Assembly (NCBI GenBank): GCA_016201865.1
Contig: JACQCA010000019.1
Span: 1-64,000 of the forward strand
Direction: 5' to 3'
Length of the DNA stretch: 64,000 nt
Origin: Nitrospirota bacterium
GTDB taxonomy: Bacteria > Nitrospirota > Nitrospiria > JACQBZ01
The notes under the pieces are model-generated. The model was not told where the DNA came from and ran no database searches. It was given only the letters and a program-made list of their open reading frames with translations. This document shows positions 31,293 to 64,000 of the stretch, in pieces. Made by a program: the position numbers and the translations under genes. How positions within the stretch are numbered: position 1 is the first letter of the stretch; every line of letters starts with the position of its first letter.

Positions 31293-31405
31293 GTCGGCTA
31301 ATATATCAAACGGTCTGGGGTGTGTAAAGCAAAAGAGCGCAACGCGCAGACCAGAAAAACGCTCTCGGCTTGACGAAGAATCCGGCGATCCGTTAGAATT
31401 TGACG

Positions 31406-32908
31406 ATGGAAGCGTCCAGTCCCGTCGATTCCGATCCGACGTTACCGCAACTCATTCCCAGCGTTCGCTGTCTGTCCTGCGACGTCTGCTGCCGGTTTCC
31501 GGAGAAGGACAGCCCGCTGGCGCCCTACTTCACGGCCGGGGAGATTCAAAGGGCGATCGAACGGGGCATCCCGTCGGAACGATTTCCGGATCCGCAAGGT
31601 TGCCGAATCAAACTCATCCCCCATCCGCTTGGAGAGGGATACATCTGTCCCGCCTTTGATCCGGCCGAAAACGGCTGCCGGATTTATAACGATCGTCCAT
31701 TGGATTGCCGGTTATTTCCACTGGCCTTGATGTGGGATCCTTCCAAAAGCGCCGTGCTTCTCGGATACGACCGCAAATGCCCATTTATCGTGGAAACGCT
31801 TTTTGAGGCGGCGCCATTTGAGTACGGCCGTTTGATGGCCGCCCGGCTGGAATCGGATGAGATGATCAAGGACCTGCAGGGGCACCCCGGATTGGTGGGC
31901 GAGTTTCAGGACGACGTGATGATCCTGACGCCGCTGCCCCGCTTGAGCGAGGCCTTGACCGGACAAAAATCGGCCGCTCGATCACGACCGTCTCCTGAAA
32001 CCGTCGGACTGACCCCGCTGACCGATACCGATCGTCCGCTTTTTGAGTCGGCGATAAAACGGACCCGGACGGAGCTTTCGAGTTATTCCTGGCCGGCGCT
32101 GATGATCTGGAAGGATCACTTCAAATATTACTGGGCGATCATCGACCGGCAGTTCTGTTTCTTTGCCGGATATGTCGACGGTCTGTTCATGCCTCTTCCG
32201 CCGATCGGAGCGTCCCTGACCGGCAAAGCCGTCCGACGGTGTTTTGAAATAATGGACGCCGTCAATCCCCATTCAGCGATATCCCGGATTGAAAATCTGG
32301 ATGCGGAGCTTGTCCCGTTTCTCGATGCGATGGGTTTTGTCGTCAAACCAAAGGAACAGGAATATCTGTATGACCGCGAGGCGCTTGTCCGTCTATCCGG
32401 GGATCGGTACAAATCCCAACGCTGGGCCTGTAACCGATTTGTGCGGGACCACCCAAAGGACAACGTCCGCTTGGAGCCCTATCGCTCTTCCGATCTCGAC
32501 GACTGCCTGGAACTGTATGCCCGTTGGAAGGACCAACAAGCCGATCATGACCCGCGTTCGGAAGACCGGATGATGCTGGAAGATGCCGCTTCGGCCCATC
32601 GGCGGGCATTGACGGAGTTTGAGGCCTTGGGCCTGATCGGGTGCGTGGTACGGCTGGCGGGAAAGATCGTCGGGTACACGTTCGGTTATTCCTTTCGGCC
32701 GGGTATCTTCTGTGTTCTGCTCGAGGTGGCCGATCATCGGATCACCGGTCTGTCGGCCTATCTCTTTCGCGAATTCTGCCGGGAGATGTCGGGCCATGCG
32801 ACGATCCATGCCATGGGCGATTCGGATCTTGCGCGCCTGCGCGCGGTCAAGCTCTCCTACCATCCATCGAAAATCATTCCATCTTATATCGTGACCCGAT
32901 CTCCGTGA
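31406..32908 (+). CDS. YkgJ-type cysteine cluster domain fused to DUF2156-like acyltransferase domain
   Basis: 'CLSCDVCCRFPEKDSPLAPYFTAGEI...CPAFDPAENGCRIYNDRPLDCRLFPLAL' then 'SYSWPALMIWKDHFKYYWAI...IHAMGDSDLARLRAVKLSYHPSKIIPSYI'. Confidence 0.82.
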   Translation: MEASSPVDSDPTLPQLIPSVRCLSCDVCCRFPEKDSPLAPYFTAGEIQRAIERGIPSERFPDPQGCRIKLIPHPLGEGYICPAFDPAENGCRIYNDRPLDCRLFPLALMWDPSKSAVLLGYDRKCPFIVETLFEAAPFEYGRLMAARLESDEMIKDLQGHPGLVGEFQDDVMILTPLPRLSEALTGQKSAARSRPSPETVGLTPLTDTDRPLFESAIKRTRTELSSYSWPALMIWKDHFKYYWAIIDRQFCFFAGYVDGLFMPLPPIGASLTGKAVRRCFEIMDAVNPHSAISRIENLDAELVPFLDAMGFVVKPKEQEYLYDREALVRLSGDRYKSQRWACNRFVRDHPKDNVRLEPYRSSDLDDCLELYARWKDQQADHDPRSEDRMMLEDAASAHRRALTEFEALGLIGCVVRLAGKIVGYTFGYSFRPGIFCVLLEVADHRITGLSAYLFREFCREMSGHATIHAMGDSDLARLRAVKLSYHPSKIIPSYIVTRSP

Positions 32909-46009: not shown

Positions 46010-46792
46010 GTGAAGCATCGAATCGCGAACGTTGTCGTTATTGTAATCGGAATTGCGGCCGGGGGGTTGAATCCGTCGCATCATGCCTGGGCTTATGAAG
46101 AAGAACGGGTTGCGGACGGCGCTACGATTACCGGACGGGCGATTTTTAAAGGCGCCGTCCCGCCGCCGAGACCGTTCGGCCTGATCGTCTATCCCGATAT
46201 CGAACTTTGCGAGCGGATCTCGGATGGAAAGGGACACCGCCTGCTCCGTGATTTTACGGTTTCGAAGGACGGAGGACTTCAGGATGTGGTCGTGGTTGTG
46301 GAAGACGTCAAGCAAGGGAAGCCCTTTCCAGTATCCGGTCCCAAGATCGCGATCAAGGATTGCAGCTTTACCCCGTTCATGTCCGTGATCCGCGACCGGC
46401 AGAACATGACCTTTCAAAACCATGACAGCGTGATTCACGATATCCAAACCTATGCGATCGAGGACAATAAACGCGGAGACCGGATCTTTGATCGCGCGGC
46501 GCTGGCCGAATCCAGCTTGACTCAGGAGATCAAGCTTCCAAAGGGACAAAAAGTGGTCTGGGTCCAGTGCGGCAAGCACTCATTCATGCAGACCTGGGCC
46601 TACGTCGTGGATAGTCCCTATGATGCGATCACGACGCAGGACGGAACCTTTTCGATCCAGGACCTTCCGCCGGGGCGGTACCGTGTGACGGCCTGGCATC
46701 CTTTCATGAAACTTCGAGAGCAGACAATCGAGGTCGCTCCAAACTCGAAGGTCGTCGTCAACTTCGAATTTGGAAAGCAGGAGACGAAATAA
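46010..46792 (+). CDS. exported cupredoxin-/carboxypeptidase-regulatory-like protein
   Basis: 'GATITGRAIFKGAVPPPRP', 'MTFQNHDSVIHDIQTY', 'GTFSIQDLPPGRYRVTAWHPFM'. Confidence 0.75.
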   Translation: MKHRIANVVVIVIGIAAGGLNPSHHAWAYEEERVADGATITGRAIFKGAVPPPRPFGLIVYPDIELCERISDGKGHRLLRDFTVSKDGGLQDVVVVVEDVKQGKPFPVSGPKIAIKDCSFTPFMSVIRDRQNMTFQNHDSVIHDIQTYAIEDNKRGDRIFDRAALAESSLTQEIKLPKGQKVVWVQCGKHSFMQTWAYVVDSPYDAITTQDGTFSIQDLPPGRYRVTAWHPFMKLREQTIEVAPNSKVVVNFEFGKQETK

Positions 46793-46793
46793 A

Positions 46794-47783
46794 ATGTCGA
46801 ACGAAACCCAGATTCAATGGACCGAAGACGCGCTGAAGAGCGTCGAAAAGGCCCCTCTGTTCTTGCGCGGCATGGTGAAAAAACTGGCCGAGAAAAAGGC
46901 GAGAGAGATGGGGCTGTCGCAAATCACGGCTGACCAATTGACGGCCTGGAAGAACGAATCGATGGGGGCGATGGGCGGCGAGAAGGGTCTTCAAGAGGCG
47001 GCCGATCAGATGGCCAAAGGCCATCTCCCCTGGACGCTCGCGGCGCGCGAGCGTCTCGCGACCGTCCCGGTTTTTATGCGGGAGATGGTGCGGCAGATCG
47101 CGGAAGAGGTTGCGATCGAACGCGGCCATATGGAGGTGAATGTCGAACTGCTTGAGAAGGTCGAGGCGCTGGGCGAGTTTGAGGATCAAAACCCGCGCGT
47201 GGCGATGCGCTGGTCGGAAGGCGCGACAGCATTGCTGATGAAGAAGATCGAAAGCGCGCCGCCCGTGGCGACCGATTTCGTCTCCCAGATGCTCAAGAGC
47301 GATGCCGAGGACCTGGCCCGGACCAAGGGCTTTTCCGAAATGACGGAGGAAAACCTGAGGGCCGTCTGGGAAGCGCCGCTCGAAGAGGTGAAATGGTCCG
47401 AAGAGGCCTGGCGGAGGTTACAGACCTCGCCCGATTTCGTCCGCAGCGGAATCAAGAAGGCGGCCGAACGGCGCGCGCGAAAAGACGGGGCCAAAGAGAT
47501 CTCGTCCGAGATGTTGACCCGTTACCGGAACCAGGCGATGATGAAAGCCGTGATGCGGATCCGAAAGCTCGGCTTCAACGAGCTGACCTTCGATGCCTTT
47601 GACGCGGCCAAACAGAAAGTAAAACGCCTCCGGGGAAACGAGCAGGCCGATAAGCGTCTGAATGAGATCCGCGATTTCATGACCAAACGCCCCGAGAAGC
47701 CCGGCGAAGTTCTCGGCGACGAATTGATGACCCGATTCCGGAAATTCCTTAAGGGTGAAGGCGACCTCAAGCCCGACGCATAG
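46794..47783 (+). CDS. protein composed of 4 PCP_red-like repeats
   Basis: Repeated 'W(T/S)E(D/E)A...(V/A)P.F.R.M.(K/R).(A/I)E..A...G...I' units. Confidence 0.8.
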   Translation: MSNETQIQWTEDALKSVEKAPLFLRGMVKKLAEKKAREMGLSQITADQLTAWKNESMGAMGGEKGLQEAADQMAKGHLPWTLAARERLATVPVFMREMVRQIAEEVAIERGHMEVNVELLEKVEALGEFEDQNPRVAMRWSEGATALLMKKIESAPPVATDFVSQMLKSDAEDLARTKGFSEMTEENLRAVWEAPLEEVKWSEEAWRRLQTSPDFVRSGIKKAAERRARKDGAKEISSEMLTRYRNQAMMKAVMRIRKLGFNELTFDAFDAAKQKVKRLRGNEQADKRLNEIRDFMTKRPEKPGEVLGDELMTRFRKFLKGEGDLKPDA

Positions 47784-51626: not shown

Positions 51627-52070
51627 TTAGTGCGCGTATCGCAGGAAGGCTGCGCAGAGAATGATGAAGAGACCGAGAACCAAAGAGATGTTGGCATAGG
51701 GCACCGCCTGCTCACCGGTCTCGGGAGGATTGGATTTGTACAGGACATTCAGCAGATAAATGCTCCCGAAGGCCGTGACCAAGGCCAACTTAAGGCCCAA
51801 GACGATCACCCAGAGTTTTGAGGCCTTCTCCGCACCCTCTAAGGCGAAATGAACATTCACGCCGCCGGTGATCAGGATCAAGGCCAGGAAGATTCCGGAC
51901 ATTCGGAAATAACGCCTCCGGATGTCCTGAAAAAAAACCTTTGTGGATTCCTGAGGGAATTTCCCCCGTAAGGCCGGCGTCAGTGTCATCACGATGAAGG
52001 CCAAGCCGCCGATCCAGATCACGACCGAGACCAGGTGAAGCCAGTGATTGATCGAAGCCAGGACGCGCAT
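51627..52070 (-). CDS. CopD-like four-TM membrane protein
   Basis: 'INHWLHLVSVVIWIGGLAFIVMTLTPAL'. Confidence 0.75.
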   Translation of the reverse strand: MRVLASINHWLHLVSVVIWIGGLAFIVMTLTPALRGKFPQESTKVFFQDIRRRYFRMSGIFLALILITGGVNVHFALEGAEKASKLWVIVLGLKLALVTAFGSIYLLNVLYKSNPPETGEQAVPYANISLVLGLFIILCAAFLRYAH

Positions 52071-52084
52071 GCGGTCGACTCCGG

Positions 52085-54085
52085 TTAAGCTCTCGGCTGC
52101 TCTTCGGCCGACTTGGCCGCTTTGAATTTTGCCAGGAGTTCATTGAGCATGGCCGGATTCTTCATCGCCTCCTCCATGGCGCGCTTGCCTTCTTCGATGC
52201 CGGCGTTCGCAATCTCAAGCGTGACGGTGTTCGTTCCCAGTTTATGCGCATGCTGCTCGATCATGCCGCGGGTGCAGTCGCGCATGTAACCCGCCGGGAC
52301 CTTCGAAAGCCGCTCAATCGCTTCCGCCGCCCAGTTCAGTTTGTCCATCGCCAGGACCTCGCTTAAGACCAGACCCTCGCTTTCCAACAGCGGAACGGCG
52401 AACTCTTTGGTGATGATCGTCAAGCCCTTCTTTCGACCCGACTTGTCCACCTTGGCCTTTGCCCGGCGTCGCTGGAAGCCGGGAGGGATCATGCGGAGGG
52501 TTTTTCGCGCCTCGTCCGTCCATTGGAGCTGGACGTCGTCATAGGCCGTCTCCATTTCGAGACCCCCCTCGGCCTTTGCCGCGGCCTCAAAGATCGTCTT
52601 GTCGAGGAATTTAAACTGCTCGCCCCCCGCGCCGCAGATGGGGCATTGGACCGGCTCGGCGCCTTTGGCGGTGTGTCCACAGGCTTGACAGACGTAATAA
52701 TTGACCGGTGGGGCCGACGCATCCGTCTCGGCCACCTGCGAGACCATGCCGGCCAGACCCTGACCCATGAGATCCCCCACCACCCCGTCGCTTGCGGTCA
52801 TTTTGTTCCGATCGATGCCGGCCGCGTCTAATTGCTTGCCCATGTTCTTCATGGCGTCGATGGCCGATTTGGGAAGAATGTCGCCCATCGCGCCATCCAC
52901 CACGGCATTGCTGATGATCGTGAACCCCTTTTCGATCGCATACCGGTAGACGGCCGTCTTGGCCATTCCCCGTGCGAAGACCGGGACCCTTTCCATGCGC
53001 TTGAGCGCCTCTTCCGTCCAGGCCACGGTGTATTCCGCGAGCGCATCGATGGGCGGAACGAATTTTCGGCTGGAGATGAGCACGTTGCAAGGGACCAGGC
53101 GGAGCAGGTTCTCGGTGTTGCTGCCGACGTCCATGTCCTCGTCCGAATGGACGCCGATGCGCCCTAGGATCAACAGCCAGGGCTTCTCGCGCCGGACGTA
53201 TTGGAGAACCTTGTCGAACGGTTTTCCATCCAGCAGCGCCGTCTTGATCTCGACGCCCTCCTCTTCCGCCACCTTTTTCGATATTTCAAGATGGGATTGG
53301 TAGATCTTTGCGAGCCCGCTGTCGATCACTTCCTCATGAAGCTTTTCCTGCTGTTTGAATCGGAAGACCTTGCCGGCTTCTTCGGAGAGGACGCCGGAGA
53401 TGCTGTTGAACATCGCGTAATGGAAGTAGGGATCGAAGGCCGAGACGGCATGGACTTCGCAATTCAAGGCCTTGGCCAGGGTCAAGGCTGTTTTGAGGCC
53501 TCCGAACGACTGCGCGCTGCCATCCATCGCGACCGTGATCTTGCCCCCGCCATTTAAGGGCTTCAAATCCTTGACGATAAAGAGATCGGCCGACCGGACG
53601 CGACGCACGACGCGCTCGGTGACGCTCCCGATCATGCTGTCCTTCACCGCGCCGACGCCGAGCGCGCCCATGACGACGAGGTCATAACCGTTTTCGTTGA
53701 TGTCGTCCACTAAGACCTTGAAATTTTTGCCTTCGAGGGACCGTTCTTCCAGAGGAATATTGTCGGCGGCGCATTTTTTTTCAACGACATCCAGATAAGA
53801 ATCCGTGATGATCTGGAGCCCGCGGGTGATCAGAGAGTCATGGATCTTCCGCTGTCGTTCGAGTTCTTGTTCGTCGTGATATTCTTCCGGAAGGCCCGCC
53901 TCCATCTGTTTGAATCGGCGATCGTGCAACTTTGCGGCGTAGACATGGCTCCCGATGACTTTGGCGCCGAACTGTTTGGCCAGTCGGACGCCGATATCGA
54001 TCGCCATGTTCGAATGATCGGAATTATCTACTGGAATGTAGATCTGCTTATACATGCGTGCCCCCTCGTGCCCTCTCCAAGGCAC
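52085..54085 (-). CDS. UspA-UspA fused to three PCP_red-like domains and a rubredoxin-like knuckle
   Basis: Two Usp domains ('GALGVGAVKDSMIGSVTERVVRR', 'GRIGVHSDEDMDVGSNTENLLRLV'); 'VAWTEEALKRMERVPVFARGMAKTAVYRYAIEKGFTII'; 'YVCQACGHTAKGAEPVQCPICGAGGEQF'; two more W-T/A-x-EA repeats. Confidence 0.85.
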   Translation of the reverse strand: MPWRGHEGARMYKQIYIPVDNSDHSNMAIDIGVRLAKQFGAKVIGSHVYAAKLHDRRFKQMEAGLPEEYHDEQELERQRKIHDSLITRGLQIITDSYLDVVEKKCAADNIPLEERSLEGKNFKVLVDDINENGYDLVVMGALGVGAVKDSMIGSVTERVVRRVRSADLFIVKDLKPLNGGGKITVAMDGSAQSFGGLKTALTLAKALNCEVHAVSAFDPYFHYAMFNSISGVLSEEAGKVFRFKQQEKLHEEVIDSGLAKIYQSHLEISKKVAEEEGVEIKTALLDGKPFDKVLQYVRREKPWLLILGRIGVHSDEDMDVGSNTENLLRLVPCNVLISSRKFVPPIDALAEYTVAWTEEALKRMERVPVFARGMAKTAVYRYAIEKGFTIISNAVVDGAMGDILPKSAIDAMKNMGKQLDAAGIDRNKMTASDGVVGDLMGQGLAGMVSQVAETDASAPPVNYYVCQACGHTAKGAEPVQCPICGAGGEQFKFLDKTIFEAAAKAEGGLEMETAYDDVQLQWTDEARKTLRMIPPGFQRRRAKAKVDKSGRKKGLTIITKEFAVPLLESEGLVLSEVLAMDKLNWAAEAIERLSKVPAGYMRDCTRGMIEQHAHKLGTNTVTLEIANAGIEEGKRAMEEAMKNPAMLNELLAKFKAAKSAEEQPRA

Positions 54086-55098: not shown

Positions 55099-58000
55099 TC
55101 AGGTCGTCAGCCGTTTGTAGATGCGGGGCAGCTTGTCCGGAAGCGTGGCGACACGATCGATGATCGTGTGGTTAACCTCGCCGTACATCTTGGCGACATA
55201 CTGACTGGCTTCGTGATCGATCGTGATGCAGTAGGGATGAATGCCGTGCATCCGGGTCTCCCTGAGCGCCATCCTGGTGTCCTGAAGGGAATGGTCCCCG
55301 GCATAGTCCGTGTCCAGAGGCTTGCCGTCGCTCAACAGGATCAGCAGGCGGGTTTTCGAGGGTTGTTGTTCTAATTTGGACGAGGCATGACGGATGGCGG
55401 CCCCGTCTCGGTTTTGGTTCAGCGATTTCATCGCGCCGATCCGCTCATGGATGACGGGATTAAAGGCCTCCGAGAAGTCTTTGATGATGTAAAAAGCCAC
55501 ATGGTCCTTCGAGTCGCCTGAAAAGCCGTAGATGGCAAAGGTGTCTCCGACCGCTTGGAGGGCCTCGGCCGTCAGGATCAGGGCCTCCTGTTCCACCTCG
55601 ATCACCCGCCTTCGGGCCGACGGGATCTGTCGGCTGGTCGAGCCGCTCATATCGATCAGGAGGGCGACCGCCACATCTCGTGTTCGTTTCTCGTTTTTGA
55701 TGTACAGACCGTCCTGGGGTGTGCGGCCGCCTCGTATGTCCGTGCGGGCCTCGACGACCGCGTCCAGATCCAACTGATCGCCGTGGACCTGGCGTTTGAT
55801 TTTTCGGAAGGCCTCCGGCCGCAGGCTCTGAAAATGGCGTCGGAGCAGCCGTAATGCCGGCCCGTGGGAGGACAGGATTTGATCGACGATCCGACCGGAC
55901 TCGGGTTCCATGCGGTGCTCATAAAGACGGCACCATTTTGGGCGGTATTCCTGGGCCCCATCGTCCCACTCGTCGTAGAAGAAAACCTTTGTTTCAAACG
56001 CCTCCATCTCGACGGAACGGGTCGGCGCCGTTTTGAATCCGAGATGGGGAAGCTTTCCGTTCGGCGTCGTTTCCGTTTGACCTTGACGGAGCATCTTTTC
56101 CCTCGGCTCCGGACGCAGAGCGGATGCGGGCGGACGGGATTCTAAACGGGAGGCATCGATGGGAAGCGTCGCCTCCCCTCGGCGCGCCTGGACCCGGTCG
56201 GGATGCATCACGCCGCGGTATGAAAGTCCGGACGGCACGAGGGTCGCCCCTTGTTGATTCGGCGATCCGGCCGAATCCGAAAAAACATCCCGCATCGTTT
56301 CTTGTGCGCCCAGCGGGTCCGCTTCGCCTTGCACGGCCGGAAAGCGGCGGAGTTGCTCCTCTATGAAACGGTACAACCGGGCCAGTACGCGAAGCGAATC
56401 GGTGGAGACGGACGACGGCTTCTTCAGTTCGAGAAGAAGGTCATAGGCGCCCGAGACGACTTCGGCCAGCTCCAATGGGGTTTCCGTCGTGTCCGTAATC
56501 GAAAGTTGAAGGAGGGCTTCATGGATCGCCGTTCTCGGGGGCAGGCTTTCTAATTTAGGCCGGGACTGGAGGTCCAGCGCAACGATCCGGTCCATGTCTC
56601 GGCGCACGCCCGGGTATTCGGTCCGAAGCAGAAAGTCAACCCGTGCGTCTTCCAGAATCGCCCAGAGCGATCGGGCCCAGGCCGGATTCGGGAAGAGACG
56701 AAGGTAGTCCCCGACCGTCTGCGCGGCCTCCGATGAGGAAGCCGCCCGACCGTATTCAGCCTGCAGCTCTTGGATGATGTCCTGCATCGCATGCAGATCC
56801 GGTTCGTACGTTCCGAACTCAAGATGACCGGCTTCATGCAGCGTGGAAACCTTGTACAACCTGAAATTCTCGGCCGCTTCGGGGAAGAACCGGATCCGGG
56901 GCGGCAGATAGATCGTCCGCCCGTCGGTGGTCGGGGAATCGCCGATCGTCTCGCGCAGTCCCTCGGGCAGATCCGTGGTCGGTTTGATCGTGACGGATTG
57001 TCCGGAGAGGCCTTCGGCGTATAACGTCAGCGTCCGGCCGATCGTCTTGAGCGAGACTCCTCCGATCAGACGTTCGGTCGTTTCCTGTCCCGTCTTCGAC
57101 CGGCCGCTGAAATAGGCCTTGGCCCGTTCGGGTCCGCCGGAGGCGGACTGCGTCAGAAGCGCAAGACCGGCATCCACCCACGCCGCAAAATCGGTCGGGT
57201 TGTTTTCAAGCGCCGAAAACATTTTCGGCCCCTCTCGGAGATAAGCCATCACTACGGACGGGTCCTGCTCGGCCAGACGCTTGGCCTGCGACAAAAACAG
57301 TCTACGGTGAATCGGGGAGCCGAATTCCCGGAGCACGGATGGACAGGATCGGAGAAAGTCCATGCCGAGGGCGGCGGATCTCCGGGCCAGAACCAGTCCC
57401 AGATCTAAGAACGGTCGTCGAAGGTCCGGCGGTTCCAGGGCGGCGAGTATCTCGGCGCTGAGCCGGAAATATTCGATCACCTTTAAATAGTCCGGCTTTC
57501 CGAGGGTATTCGGTTCGACGAGATGCTTTCCCCATTCAACCCAAAGCGCGAGGTCGGCCATGGCGAGATGGCGCAGGACCTCCGGGCTGATCCGGAAATA
57601 CTCGACCGCCAGCACCAAGTCCTCCTCCGTCAGACGAAGGCCTTCCTCCATCCACGAGGTCAGATCGGTCGTCTCCATTCCGGCGGACAGTTGAGAGCCG
57701 GCCCGGATAAAGTCCAGCACGACGCCGTGATGCCCGTCGCTCAATTCCAGTCCGAGCGTCAGGAGCGGCAGTCGTTTTGAGGGGTCGGTCGCGGCCAGGA
57801 GGTCCGGGCTCTCCGAAAAATATTTCTGCGCCGCCGTCGAGGACTGGGACGCCATGGCCGTGCCCAGATCAAGCCATGGAAGCGCCTGGGCCGGGCCGAC
57901 GGCCTGAAGAACGCGGGGAAGTTTTTTAAGGCCGATCGTGGCCGATTTTGGGGAGGCCTCGATCAATTCTTCCGATAGTTCGAAGAAGCGGCTCCGGTCG

Positions 58001-58119
58001 GAAGGGGCAAAGGCGGCGATCGTCTCGAAAAGGATCTTCTTAGAGTGAGCGTCTAATTCATGCGCGCAAAAATCGGCGAGAAGAGGAGGGAGCGAAATCG
58101 GGGAGGTCGGGTCCGTCAT
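55099..58119 (-). CDS. NorD/CbbO-like von Willebrand factor A protein with N-terminal helical repeats
   Basis: MIDAS 'ALLIDMSGSTSRQ', 'LLILLSDGKPLDTDYAG'; ~42-aa N-terminal repeats; 'STLHEAGHLEFGTYEP'. Confidence 0.87.
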   Translation of the reverse strand: MTDPTSPISLPPLLADFCAHELDAHSKKILFETIAAFAPSDRSRFFELSEELIEASPKSATIGLKKLPRVLQAVGPAQALPWLDLGTAMASQSSTAAQKYFSESPDLLAATDPSKRLPLLTLGLELSDGHHGVVLDFIRAGSQLSAGMETTDLTSWMEEGLRLTEEDLVLAVEYFRISPEVLRHLAMADLALWVEWGKHLVEPNTLGKPDYLKVIEYFRLSAEILAALEPPDLRRPFLDLGLVLARRSAALGMDFLRSCPSVLREFGSPIHRRLFLSQAKRLAEQDPSVVMAYLREGPKMFSALENNPTDFAAWVDAGLALLTQSASGGPERAKAYFSGRSKTGQETTERLIGGVSLKTIGRTLTLYAEGLSGQSVTIKPTTDLPEGLRETIGDSPTTDGRTIYLPPRIRFFPEAAENFRLYKVSTLHEAGHLEFGTYEPDLHAMQDIIQELQAEYGRAASSSEAAQTVGDYLRLFPNPAWARSLWAILEDARVDFLLRTEYPGVRRDMDRIVALDLQSRPKLESLPPRTAIHEALLQLSITDTTETPLELAEVVSGAYDLLLELKKPSSVSTDSLRVLARLYRFIEEQLRRFPAVQGEADPLGAQETMRDVFSDSAGSPNQQGATLVPSGLSYRGVMHPDRVQARRGEATLPIDASRLESRPPASALRPEPREKMLRQGQTETTPNGKLPHLGFKTAPTRSVEMEAFETKVFFYDEWDDGAQEYRPKWCRLYEHRMEPESGRIVDQILSSHGPALRLLRRHFQSLRPEAFRKIKRQVHGDQLDLDAVVEARTDIRGGRTPQDGLYIKNEKRTRDVAVALLIDMSGSTSRQIPSARRRVIEVEQEALILTAEALQAVGDTFAIYGFSGDSKDHVAFYIIKDFSEAFNPVIHERIGAMKSLNQNRDGAAIRHASSKLEQQPSKTRLLILLSDGKPLDTDYAGDHSLQDTRMALRETRMHGIHPYCITIDHEASQYVAKMYGEVNHTIIDRVATLPDKLPRIYKRLTT

Positions 58120-58125
58120 GACCGG

Positions 58126-58956
58126 TTACGGAAAGATGCTGTTGACGATTTCGGAGAGGCTCCGATGCATGTCGGGATCGTCCGTGATCGGCTGGATGAC
58201 GGCCGCTTCGCAGGCGGTCCGCGGATCAATTCCTTTCCGGATCAAGTCACCGGCGTAGACCAAAAGGCGCGTGCTGACCCCCTCCTCCAGTCCGTGGTTC
58301 TTTAAATTCCGGACCTTCTCGCCTAATTTAACCAGGCTCATCGCGGCGGCTTCAGAAAGCCCGGTCTCATGAAGGAGGATGCGGACCTCCATTTCTTTGG
58401 GAGGATAATCGAACTCGATCGCCAGGAATCGCTGCTTGGTGCTCGGCTTGAGCTCTTTGAGTACGCTTTGGTAGCCGGGGTTGTATGAAATCACCAGCAT
58501 GAATTCATCCACCGCCTCTATCACTTGGCCCTTTTTCTCGATGGGAAGGATTCGGCGGTCGTCCGTCAGCGGGTGGATCACGACCGTGGTGTCCTTGCGG
58601 GCCTCGACCACCTCATCGAGGTAGCAGATCGCGCCGTGCTTGGCGGCGAGGGTGAGCGGACCGTCCATCCAGACCGTCTCGTCGCCCCGGAGGAGATAAC
58701 GACCGACGATGTCCGAGGCCGTCAGATCCTCGTGACAGGCGATCGTGATCAGCGGCCGTTTGAGCTGGTAGGCCATGTGTTGAACGAATCGGGTCTTGCC
58801 GCAGCCCGTCGGGCCTTTGAGCATGACCGGCATCCGATTCAGATAGGCGGTGCGAAACAGATCGATCTCGCTCCGTACCGGGATATAAAAAGGCTCCCGC
58901 GCGATCCGGAACTGATCGATCTCGAGCTCCAGTCCTTTGAGCCGTTCGGTCGTCAT
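58126..58956 (-). CDS. CbbQ/NirQ/NorQ-type MoxR AAA+ ATPase
   Basis: '[45 protein letters not shown]', '[36 protein letters not shown]'. Confidence 0.93.
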
Positions 58957-59914: not shown

Positions 59915-59998
59915 ATAGGGGCTCGCGTCGCCCCCTCCATCCGCCTAAGGCGGAATGGAGCCTTCCCCCTCTCGCTCGCTGAGCTCGCTGGGTATTTA
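59915..59998. repeat. ~80-bp hairpin element, copy B (intergenic)
   Basis: Same family as 7425..7502 and 63462..63544; compensatory changes in the inner stem (ccgcctaaggcgg). Confidence 0.85.
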
Positions 59999-60619
59999 CC
60001 TGGAAGGCGCGTAGTAGGGATTTCGGCCGGAGGCGTGGTCCGTAGTATCAAGAATCTCCGTGACCTCGGGGACGAACTGCCGGATCGTCTTCTCGATGCC
60101 CTGCTTGAGGGTGACGGAGGCCATGCCGCAGCCCTGGCATCCGCCGCTCATCTTGATATAGACCGTCGTTCCTTTGACGTCCAAGAGCGATACGTAACCG
60201 CCATGTCCCCCCACGCCCGGATTGATCTGTGTGTCTAAGAGATTCTGGATCTTGGCCTTGATCCGTTCTTCATTGGCGAGATCGGCCCCGGATCCCTTCG
60301 AGATCGCGGACGGGAGGGACGCCGCCTCGGACTGGAGATATGCCCGGATCACCTTCCCCACCTTCTTTCCGATTGCGGTCCAGTCCTCGGCGCCCTTCTT
60401 GGCGATCGTGACCGTGTTGCCGGCCAGTTGAACGGCCGTCACCCCCTCGATCTGAAACAACTTCTCGGCCAGGGGCGATTCCTTGGCTTTTTCCCTGCCC
60501 AGGTAGAGGAGCGAGCCTCCCGCGCGAAAGACGGGACGGTCGACGACGAACTTGCACCGCTCCGCGTCCAACACCTCCGCCTTGATCTTGATCTCCGTAT
60601 CGGCTTGTTTTAATTCCAT
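59996..60619 (-). CDS. Nfu-type Fe-S scaffold protein with N-terminal Nfu_N-like domain
   Basis: 'INPGVGGHGGYVSLLDVKGTTVYIKMSGGCQGCGMASVTLKQGIEKTI' (CxxC NifU C-terminal domain). Confidence 0.93.
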   Translation of the reverse strand: MELKQADTEIKIKAEVLDAERCKFVVDRPVFRAGGSLLYLGREKAKESPLAEKLFQIEGVTAVQLAGNTVTIAKKGAEDWTAIGKKVGKVIRAYLQSEAASLPSAISKGSGADLANEERIKAKIQNLLDTQINPGVGGHGGYVSLLDVKGTTVYIKMSGGCQGCGMASVTLKQGIEKTIRQFVPEVTEILDTTDHASGRNPYYAPSR

Positions 60620-60631
60620 CGGATGATTCTC

Positions 60632-60964
60632 CTATCGCTTTCTGCAAAGTTCACAGGGACAGATCTCACGCAGATAATCAAAGTGATAAATCCCCGTGGC
60701 GTGTTGATCCGAGAATGAAAAGCTTAAGCCGTAGCCTCCCACCGGTTCCACTTTCAAGCCCTCCAGATCCAACGGGATGCTGCCGGGGTTCAGTGTTTTT
60801 GCGCTCGTCCATTCATCGATGCAGCCGGCGCAGGGGCAGTTCTGCCTTAAATACCGAAAGCTGTACGGACTCACATGCCCGTCTTCCCATGTGATCAGGA
60901 GCGTTTTATTGCCCTGTTTTTTGATGATGGCCGGCGTGCCGCGGGTATGTTGAACATTTGTCAT
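60632..60964 (-). CDS. DUF971 (GBBH-like N-terminal) protein
   Basis: 'LLITWEDGHVSPYSFRYLRQNCPCAGCIDEWT...GYGLSFSFSDQHATGIYHFDYLREICPCELC'; start trimmed to ATG at 60964. Confidence 0.92.
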   Translation of the reverse strand: MTNVQHTRGTPAIIKKQGNKTLLITWEDGHVSPYSFRYLRQNCPCAGCIDEWTSAKTLNPGSIPLDLEGLKVEPVGGYGLSFSFSDQHATGIYHFDYLREICPCELCRKR

Positions 60965-60971
60965 GACAGGT

Positions 60972-62078
60972 CTATACCGTAAACGTTTTCGGATTCGGTT
61001 CCGGTTCTTCGATAATCTGGATCGGCTTCGAATAATAATTGCGAATGCTGATTTGAGCCGCCAGCCGTTCGATGATCTCAAGATACGCCTTGGCCGAGGG
61101 AGCCTCGGGATCGGCGATCACGATCGGCATGCCTTGATCCGCGTATTTCCGAATGGCGATATCCAGAGGGATCTCTCCTAAAAACGGCACCTTCAGGCGC
61201 TCGCTTTCCTGCGCGACCATCCCGTGTCCGAAGATCTCTTCCCGCTCGCCGCAATGGGAACAGATGTGGTAACTCATGTTTTCGATGATCCCGAGCGGGT
61301 GGACCTTGGTTTGCTCGAACATCCGGAAGGTCTTCATCGAGATCGTCAGGCCCACGTCCTGAGGCGTGGAGACGATCACGGCGCCCACCAGCGCGACCGT
61401 CTGAACCAGGGTGAGGTGAACATCCCCCGTTCCCGGAGGCATATCCACGATCAAGTAATCCAACGGACCCCAATCCACATTCAGCAACGATTCCTGGACG
61501 GCCTTATGGGCCATGGGGCCCCGCCAGATCAGCGGCTGGTTGCCGGTCGCCAGAAAGCCCATCGACATGAATTTGACGCCGTGCGCTTCGATCGGGATAA
61601 TGCGGCCGTCGCGTTGTCGGAGCTCTTCCGTCCGCGCGCCCATCATGATGGGGATGGTCGGTCCATAGATATCGCCGTCGACGAGCCCCACCTTGGCTCC
61701 GTATTTGGCCAGTCCCACCGCGAGATTCGCGCTCACGGTGGACTTCCCCACGCCCCCTTTGCCGCTGCCGATCGCGACGATGTTCTTAACGCCCGGAATC
61801 GCGGCGCGATCCGTCGCCGCATGTCCCGTCACTTCGGACTTCATCTTGACATCGACCATCGAGACGCCCGAAAGGCCTTTTACAATACCGGCGGCCTCTT
61901 CCCGCATCTTTTCTTTCACGGGAAAGAGGGGCATGGGCAGAACGATCTCAAAGCCGACCTTGGAATCCCGAACCGCGATATGATCAACAAATCCCAGGGT
62001 CACGATGTCTTTATGAAAATCCGGATCCTGGATTCGGCTTAAGGCGGCCAGGATCTCTTTTTCGGTGACGGGCATCAA
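60972..62078 (-). CDS. apbC: Mrp/NBP35 family Fe-S carrier ATPase
   Basis: 'IGSGKGGVGKSTVSANLAVGLAK', 'DYLIVDMPPGTGDVHLTLVQ', 'ENMSYHICSHCGEREEIFG'. Confidence 0.96.
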   Translation of the reverse strand: MMPVTEKEILAALSRIQDPDFHKDIVTLGFVDHIAVRDSKVGFEIVLPMPLFPVKEKMREEAAGIVKGLSGVSMVDVKMKSEVTGHAATDRAAIPGVKNIVAIGSGKGGVGKSTVSANLAVGLAKYGAKVGLVDGDIYGPTIPIMMGARTEELRQRDGRIIPIEAHGVKFMSMGFLATGNQPLIWRGPMAHKAVQESLLNVDWGPLDYLIVDMPPGTGDVHLTLVQTVALVGAVIVSTPQDVGLTISMKTFRMFEQTKVHPLGIIENMSYHICSHCGEREEIFGHGMVAQESERLKVPFLGEIPLDIAIRKYADQGMPIVIADPEAPSAKAYLEIIERLAAQISIRNYYSKPIQIIEEPEPNPKTFTV

Positions 62079-62157
62079 CCTTCTCCTTTGTAGTTTCTGC
62101 GATCGAGCTTCTATTCTACGGGCGGCCGGATTCCTTCGTCAAGCGGTTTAATCCTTG

Positions 62158-62739
62158 TCAACCAAGATCGCTGGAGAGTTCCTGCCGAACGGCCTTATCC
62201 AAGATAGTTCGGGCCCGGTATTTCGGATGATCCACGACCAGAGCGGCCGGAGTCTTATCATTGCGGAATTCGGTCTGCTGTTCCGGTGAAAACTGAAAAC
62301 GGACATAATGGACCGCGCTGAGTTTGTCCTCCTTGCTGTGGCCGGCCTCAAACTGTCCGTCGATTCGATCCGGGCCGAGCTCAATAAAGACGGAGCGGCC
62401 GTCGTCAATCCCCTGGAGGCCGTCCAGGATTTCCTTGATCCGTTCCGATTCGGTGATCTCGATGAACAGCGTGGCCGACAGCTCGCCCGGGCCGCCGATC
62501 AGGGGGTTGTACGTATCCAGTTCGTCCTGTATTTTTTCCGGATCGTAGATATGCTCCACGCGCATCATTTCCTGGATCTGGAACAGGATCGTGTCGCGAT
62601 TCTCGAAGACCAGCGTCATCCGGTCGCCGACTGAAACGCGCCGCCGTTTCTTGAGGGCGATGATCCGTTCCCTGAGTTCTTTGCGGATCGGTTCGTATTC
62701 CGAAAGCGGCTTTATGTCTTTTAATTGGAGCGTGTCCAT
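62158..62739 (-). CDS. DUF3501 family protein
   Basis: 'YEPIRKELRERIIALKKRRRVSVGDRMTLVFENRDTILFQIQEMMRVEHIYDPEKIQDELDTYNPLI'. Confidence 0.88.
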   Translation of the reverse strand: MDTLQLKDIKPLSEYEPIRKELRERIIALKKRRRVSVGDRMTLVFENRDTILFQIQEMMRVEHIYDPEKIQDELDTYNPLIGGPGELSATLFIEITESERIKEILDGLQGIDDGRSVFIELGPDRIDGQFEAGHSKEDKLSAVHYVRFQFSPEQQTEFRNDKTPAALVVDHPKYRARTILDKAVRQELSSDLG

Positions 62740-62740
62740 T

Positions 62741-64000
62741 TTATTTTAAGCCGTACGCTTTTTGAATGATCTGAATCGGATGGACCGATTTCTTCCCGGT
62801 GCTCTGCGTGAGCGCCATGCCGGAGAGGGGACAGTCCGAGGCGGTCACATCCGGTTTGGCATTCTCGACGGCGGCAAAGGCTTTCCGCCCGACCTTGAGC
62901 GAGAAGTCGTAGTATTCTTGTTTTACCCCGAACGTGCCGTCATGTCCGGAACATTTCTCGATCACCTCGACCGTGATCCCGGGAATCAGCTTCATCAGGT
63001 CACGGGATTTCAGCCCGATGTTCTGGTCCCGCAGATGGCACGGCACCTGGTAGGCGACCTTGCCGGGGCTGGAGACGAAATCCTTCGCAAGTTTCCCCTG
63101 GCTGTCGAGTTTCATGAGATATTCGCAGAGATCATAGGTGTTGGCCGCGACCTTCCGCGCCTCTTCCGTCGGAACGAGGTCCGGGTATTCCTTCTTCAGC
63201 ATCAGGCTGCAGGTCGGCATGGGGGAGACAATTTTATAGCCCGCATCCACGGCGGCTGCCAGACTCTTGATATTCGACCGGGCCTTTTGACGGACCGCCT
63301 CCAGATCCCCGATATCGAAGTACGGCATCCCGCAACATTCCTGCTCCGGGCAGATCACCTCGACGCCGTTTTTCTCAAGGACCTGGAGCGTGGCCTTGCC
63401 GATCTCGGGATCATGGCGGTTGACGTAACAGGTATAAAAGAGCGCCACCTTTTCTTCCATCATAGGGGCTCGCGTCGCCCCCTCCACCGGCGAAGCCGGA
63501 TGGAGCCTCCCCCTCTCGCTCGCTTCCGCTCGCTGGGTATCTACAAACGATTGCCGATGGAAATGGGGAAAAAGTCTTTCCCGGTGAATACCCATCACTT
63601 TTTCAAGTACCCAGCGCACCGACGGTTGCCGCAGAGCCCAGTTGGTCAGCGGAGCGATCATTCCGCCCAGGCGCCCCATGAAATCCACATCGGCCAGAAA
63701 CCGGTCGCGCAGTCCGGCCGGTTGCCGGTTCAACTTTAAATGCTTTCCCCAAAGCATGAGCCGCGGAAAATCCAGGTCGTAATGATGCGGGGGGCAATAA
63801 GGACAGTGGTTAAAACAGAGTTTGCAATAATAACAGAGATCCACCACCTGATTTAAAACCAGGGCGTCCAGCGCGTTCACTTCGCCGTCTTTGTCGTCGA
63901 CGCCGCGGAACAGCACATCAAACGACGGGCAAAGGTTAAAGCATCTCCGGCATCCGTTGCAGATCTCATAGACACGCAACGTCTCGGTGTCAAAGGCTTT
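62741..64000 (-). CDS. GlpC/HdrB-type Fe-S oxidoreductase, probably continuing past the window edge
   Basis: 'CNGCRRCFNLCPSF', 'CYYCKLCFNHCPYCPPH', CCG motifs 'CPEQECCGMPYF' and 'KCSGHDGTFG'; the frame stays open to position 64000. Confidence 0.88.
   Translation of the reverse strand, partial: KAFDTETLRVYEICNGCRRCFNLCPSFDVLFRGVDDKDGEVNALDALVLNQVVDLCYYCKLCFNHCPYCPPHHYDLDFPRLMLWGKHLKLNRQPAGLRDRFLADVDFMGRLGGMIAPLTNWALRQPSVRWVLEKVMGIHRERLFPHFHRQSFVDTQRAEASERGRLHPASPVEGATRAPMMEEKVALFYTCYVNRHDPEIGKATLQVLEKNGVEVICPEQECCGMPYFDIGDLEAVRQKARSNIKSLAAAVDAGYKIVSPMPTCSLMLKKEYPDLVPTEEARKVAANTYDLCEYLMKLDSQGKLAKDFVSSPGKVAYQVPCHLRDQNIGLKSRDLMKLIPGITVEVIEKCSGHDGTFGVKQEYYDFSLKVGRKAFAAVENAKPDVTASDCPLSGMALTQSTGKKSVHPIQIIQKAYGLK
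63462..63544. repeat. ~80-bp hairpin element, copy C, in frame inside the Fe-S oxidoreductase CDS
   Basis: Encodes '...DTQRAEASERGRLHPASPVEGATRAPMM...'. Confidence 0.88.

Follow-up and report, generated by a model that had tools for sequence, protein, structure and literature searches.

The PCP_red domain (PF08369) is already known as a fusion in BchB. In phototrophs, it is listed as one of the most prevalent Pfams of photosynthesis (PMC12815261), and in the literature that we searched, PF08369 was found solely as a marker of phototrophy, while queries by the Pfam name PCP_red returned unrelated work only and queries pairing AhbD with protochlorophyllide returned nothing. The passage concerned in PMC12159084 links the universal stress protein (Usp) domain with LI-POR_suB-like_C in archaea (Methanomicrobiaceae) on the basis of automatic annotation. 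For heme synthesis, AhbD and ChdC have been reviewed as alternative catalysts of the same last step, the conversion of coproheme to heme (PMC7242693). The cytochrome bd-like oxidases of Nitrospira are treated as putative novel terminal oxidases in the relevant passages of PMC6606698 and PMC12342949. Here we describe a gene from a Nitrospirota genome (2.47 Mb, 95% complete) found in a window of 64,000 nucleotides (the whole stretch of DNA analysed, positions 1 to 64,000 of contig JACQCA010000019.1).

A tandem Usp protein with a PCP_red extension

The gene is located on the reverse strand at 52085..54055. Homologues place the translation start at 54055 (MYKQIYIPVD) and not at the GTG at 54085, and the protein therefore comprises 656 aa, which shortens the 666-aa ORF of the original prediction. 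The domain order read there from the letters alone, Usp-Usp-PCP_red-rubredoxin-like knuckle-PCP_red-PCP_red, was borne out by Pfam hmmscan, with the knuckle slightly under its own cutoff, and every domain belongs to a known family. The AlphaFold model of the protein is of moderate quality (pLDDT 72, pTM 0.49).

Usp (PF00582) matches with 128 bits over two stretches of the ORF (E 4e-37), corresponding to Usp domain 1 (residues 1-160; 53576..54055, reverse strand) and Usp domain 2 (residues 172-330; 53066..53542, reverse strand). Both carry an ATP-type motif (G-2x-G-9x-GS in domain 1) and a highly conserved insert, HVYAAKLHDRRFKQMEAGLPEEY in domain 1 and AFDPYFHYA...EEAGKVFRFKQQEKLHEE in domain 2. 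The motif G-2x-G-9x-G(S/T) is kept in 32/33 homologues in the first domain and 31/33 in the second, which suggests that the tandem Usp half binds an adenine nucleotide. Foldseek groups this first half with tandem Usps, Rv2623 and ATP-bound TTHA0350 being closest. The two inserts (residues 37-89 and 206-256) are the most constrained parts of the protein, with mean conservation of 0.93 and 0.95 compared with 0.83-0.84 for the whole Usp domains and 0.69-0.87 for PCP_red, and they contain five His residues (37, 44, 72, 212 and 240) that are invariant across classes and phyla. The insert of Usp domain 2 is poorly modelled, which could reflect ordering upon binding of a partner or ligand. Identity between classes and phyla amounts to 47-59%, a constraint stronger than Usps usually show, and a generic Usp is judged unlikely given this conservation and the gene pairing described below.

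An energy or stress sensor, in which the tandem Usp half responds to adenylates by switching respiration or heme synthesis at low oxygen, would fit the retained ATP motifs and the fold class, and several UspA proteins, not linked to the one described here, increase at low O2 in Nitrospira marina (PMC8115632). However, the unusual constraint is concentrated in inserts outside the ATP motif, and the constant association with a single enzyme fits a working partner better than a general sensor; we therefore consider a sensor unlikely. A search for a regulator or DNA-binding partner that would support such a role found none.

The rubredoxin-like knuckle (Cys 456/459/471/474; 52601..52699, reverse strand) reaches 25.3 bits against RUBY_RBDX (PF21349; E 1e-5), slightly under the cutoff of 26.5 bits. 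Its CxxC...CxxC metal-ligand pattern is kept in 31/33 homologues. It is not essential, because homologues occur without it: the knuckle is absent in the gammaproteobacterial homologues and in related tandem Usps of other Nitrospirota lineages. Rubredoxin as the essential core function was rejected on the same grounds. The knuckle is a lineage-specific addition, which might transfer electrons or hold metal.

PCP_red domains in a non-photosynthetic class

PCP_red matches the ORF with 102.5 bits in total over three stretches on the reverse strand (52892..53020, 52403..52522 and 52211..52333), and the individual scores of 51.8, 34.6 and 32.8 bits all lie above the per-domain Pfam cutoff of 32.5 bits, in agreement with the original assignment of the three repeats. 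A second PCP_red protein, overlooked in that prediction, is encoded in the window on the forward strand (46770..47783) and consists of three domains above the Pfam cutoff and little else. Its homologue lies directly 3' of the Usp gene and its radical SAM neighbour in several Nitrospiria.

The match to full-length BchB (TIGR01278) is confined to the C-terminal domain (63 of 490 bits). Family searches of the host genome, which is 95% complete, identified neither a BchB core nor BchL above cutoff, so that the earlier remark that no other chlorophyll gene is visible in the window now extends to the whole genome; BchL above cutoff was likewise found in 0/98 Nitrospiria searched. A chlorophyll (DPOR) function persisting in cryptic or degenerate form, to which the naming of the domain after BchB and the C-terminal BchB match might point, is contradicted by these genomes and was rejected as extremely improbable.

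Relatives at ~91-94% identity derive from Nitrospiria/Nitrospirae groundwater MAGs, and more distant matches were obtained from a Nitrospira sp. MAG (60%) and two gammaproteobacterial MAGs (~40%). The full protein was found in 230/247 Nitrospiria genomes, normally at a single place in each. PCP_red itself occurs in 165/296 Nitrospirota genomes, and a typical Nitrospiria genome contains roughly nine to thirteen occurrences of it. PCP_red proteins are nearly ubiquitous in Nitrospiria in the absence of DPOR. Together with the 0/98 result for BchL, this makes the Usp-PCP_red protein a class-wide, non-photosynthetic family in a class that includes nitrite oxidisers. As the domain is so abundant in this class and is tied there to heme enzymes (see below), PF08369 can mislead when it is read as evidence of chlorophyll synthesis.

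PCP_red is short (45 positions) and helical and occurs in several architectures, including zinc-ribbon proteins, all of which would also suit an ordinary stress protein carrying a generic helical protein-interaction domain without any tetrapyrrole link. The fusions and pairings of the domain favour tetrapyrrole enzymes, however, namely BchB, an AhbD-like enzyme and a HemQ-like protein, and we regard a generic role as very unlikely. As a separate observation, a zinc-ribbon and PCP_red protein on contig C81 (locus L002, 1461-1994) adjoins an Mrp-type NTPase, and its homologues elsewhere have two PCP_red domains.

A radical SAM partner and the heme pathway

In 21/24 informative loci, a radical SAM/SPASM gene lies adjacent to the Usp-PCP_red gene on the same strand within ~250 bp; in the host genome it is found on a separate contig (C55). 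The encoded protein contains both radical SAM and SPASM domains and ends in PCP_red. It scores 299-337 bits to AhbD and 304-328 bits to NirJ2, far above NirJ, AhbC and PqqE (NCBIfam), and it stays below the curated threshold for each named heme family, reaching at most 337 of the 500 bits required for AhbD (TIGR04545). The number of PCP_red domains is variable: the radical SAM protein of genome G049 has three of its own, and in G264 the tandem Usp is devoid of PCP_red and still precedes a radical SAM-PCP_red gene in an oxidase cluster. Thus, the constant unit is the tandem Usp together with the radical SAM enzyme, while the number of PCP_red domains varies on both.

Further genes surround the Usp-PCP_red gene on the reverse strand. 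A CopD-like small membrane protein (51627..52070; PF05425 slightly under cutoff) is encoded 14 bp downstream, and homologues of it are found near the gene in 14 loci. Upstream are a VWA protein (CobT/NorD/CbbO-like; 55099..58119) and, as identified by Pfam, an AAA+ ATPase with a CbbQ/NirQ/NorQ C-terminus (58126..58956); this arrangement is repeated in a relative with 91% identity (L009). Pairs of a VWA protein and a NorQ/CbbQ-type AAA+ ATPase are of a type known to activate metalloenzymes. Close to the locus, the window also contains a same-strand series of iron-sulfur-type genes at 59996-63979 (Nfu, an Mrp/ApbC NTPase, DUF3501 and a CCG/4Fe-4S protein) and, at 31400-32905, an unusual combination of LPG_synthase_C fused with a CxxCxxCC zinc/iron-chelating domain. 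In Nitrospira-type genomes (L094, 11036-13534), the Usp/radical SAM pair is preceded by MpqE (methyl-plastoquinone methyltransferase, above cutoff) and by an slr0320-like B12-binding radical SAM protein.

The host genome additionally encodes, on contig C63, a fusion of PCP_red to a chlorite-dismutase (Cld)-family domain; among solved structures, this domain matches coproheme decarboxylases (HemQ/ChdC) best. The fusion protein keeps the aligned Tyr (MYPF) and His (DEH), which we take to be the catalytic and the proximal residue, respectively, and it stays under the NCBIfam cutoff (129 of 235 bits). The HemQ-PCP_red fusion was observed in two families only, f1 and f7, and an unfused HemQ-like relative is widespread, with matches in 87/98 Nitrospiria. 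Since AhbD and ChdC perform the same final step (PMC7242693), two candidates for one step bear PCP_red.

To sample the heme pathway, family searches were run in nine Nitrospiria genomes. Ferrochelatase was identified in seven of them, including the host genome, and had no match in the other two, one of which is 99% complete; siroheme decarboxylase (PF17805) was absent in 9/9, and a siroheme-dependent heme route is accordingly not supported. Judged by these gene contents, a coproporphyrin-type pathway would be compatible with both results. A protoporphyrinogen-oxidase-type gene follows ferrochelatase in the host genome, and ferrochelatase and the HemQ fusion are ~4.6 kb apart in the relative G302. 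Genome G065 (family f3; 99% complete) is without a ferrochelatase match, yet Usp and HemQ-like genes are present. With heme-type enzymes as neighbours and DPOR missing, the non-photosynthetic tetrapyrrole role put forward in the original prediction holds as a link to heme; the accompanying "sensor" is without direct support, and the alternative term "scaffold" is plausible.

Association with cytochrome bd-like oxidases

Outside the Nitrospiria, the Usp/radical SAM pair was identified in cytochrome bd-like oxidase clusters at four loci, which belong to Gammaproteobacteria and to two further families of Nitrospirota (three lineages in all), and three of these four loci contain a protoporphyrinogen-oxidase-type gene. 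G049 (Nitrospirota) and the gammaproteobacteria OFTM67 and OFTM98 share a common gene order of bd-like oxidase, cytochrome c, EB_dh-domain cytochrome c, Usp-Usp-PCP_red, radical SAM-PCP_red and protoporphyrinogen-oxidase-type flavoprotein. Within the Nitrospiria, the pair does not adjoin the oxidase; the sampled genomes of this class encode the oxidase in 114/114 and the Usp in 110/114 cases. Among the non-Nitrospiria Nitrospirota (n=182), 15 genomes combine the tandem Usp with the bd-like oxidase, 4 contain the Usp only, 9 the oxidase only and 154 neither (Fisher p 1.2e-12, relatedness ignored), the 19 tandem-Usp matches including three weak ones (33-35% identity). PCP_red was present in 24/24 oxidase-positive compared with 27/158 other genomes (p 4e-16, relatedness ignored). 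In G247, a protein of 170 aa carrying two PCP_red domains is encoded ~7 kb from a bd-like oxidase gene (L099, 8768-9280).

The co-occurrence with the oxidase, the location of the radical SAM gene within oxidase operons at these four loci and the similarity of its product to NirJ2 (putative heme d1 type), which is as close as that to AhbD, would also be in line with a modified heme, d-like or otherwise altered, being made or inserted for the Nitrospirota bd-like oxidase, with the radical SAM enzyme modifying the heme and the Usp-PCP_red protein presenting it. We consider this unlikely, as the pair is separate from the oxidase in Nitrospiria, and protoporphyrinogen oxidase and the HemQ fusion point equally to plain heme b.

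Our favoured reading, of moderate confidence, is that the Usp-PCP_red protein serves the late steps of heme synthesis, or the delivery of heme, as a dedicated accessory factor in Nitrospirota. Its tandem Usp half would bind an adenine nucleotide and partner the AhbD/NirJ2-like radical SAM enzyme, probably via the two near-invariant inserts. The PCP_red modules, common to the Usp protein, the radical SAM enzyme and the HemQ-like protein, may serve for docking or porphyrin handling around the coproheme-to-heme step, and the heme would be destined for the respiratory cytochromes and above all for the cytochrome bd-like oxidase. Whereas the domains, their conservation, the gene pairing, the fusions and the co-occurrence are directly observed, we infer the porphyrin contact, the enzyme chemistry and the direction of delivery. 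A more far-reaching proposal, which we put forward only tentatively and with considerable doubt, is that the tandem Usp, the AhbD/NirJ2-like radical SAM enzyme and PCP_red form a new biogenesis system that makes or inserts the heme of the bd-like oxidase, PCP_red then being a general heme-pathway domain and not one of chlorophyll synthesis. If true, the oxidase served would be the one that Nitrospira-type nitrite oxidisers depend on as their terminal oxidase. The gene pair provides a tangible starting point for asking how nitrite oxidisers supply their unusual bd-like oxidases with heme, and a universal stress protein with a specific enzyme partner is rare in a family of mostly unknown function.

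Comparison with described systems

In the literature searched, we found no description of the constant pairing with an enzyme of the AhbD/NirJ2 type, of the HemQ fusion or of a link to the oxidase. The oxidase that adjoins the pair in other lineages is of the same type as the cytochrome bd-like oxidases of Nitrospira, for which the relevant passages of PMC6606698 and PMC12342949 do not mention a Usp/radical SAM accessory pair. The archaeal protein likewise unites a Usp and a PCP_red-type domain in one chain; it is likened here by annotation, and the passage describing it gives neither gene context nor a heme link (PMC12159084). The radical SAM neighbour shares its two domains and its best NCBIfam matches with AhbD and NirJ2 and differs from both in scoring under their curated cutoffs and in its additional C-terminal PCP_red. 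In common with PCP_red as represented by the solved examples 2KRU and 2L09, the protein described here has domains above the Pfam cutoff, three in number. Unlike in DPOR, these occur without a BchB core and without BchL, in non-photosynthetic genomes, and are repeated and fused to other enzymes. With the tandem Usps Rv2623, TTHA0350 and UspE, the protein has in common two Usp folds in tandem and intact ATP motifs; unlike them, it possesses two long near-invariant inserts, a fixed partner gene and a C-terminal PCP_red and rubredoxin-like extension.
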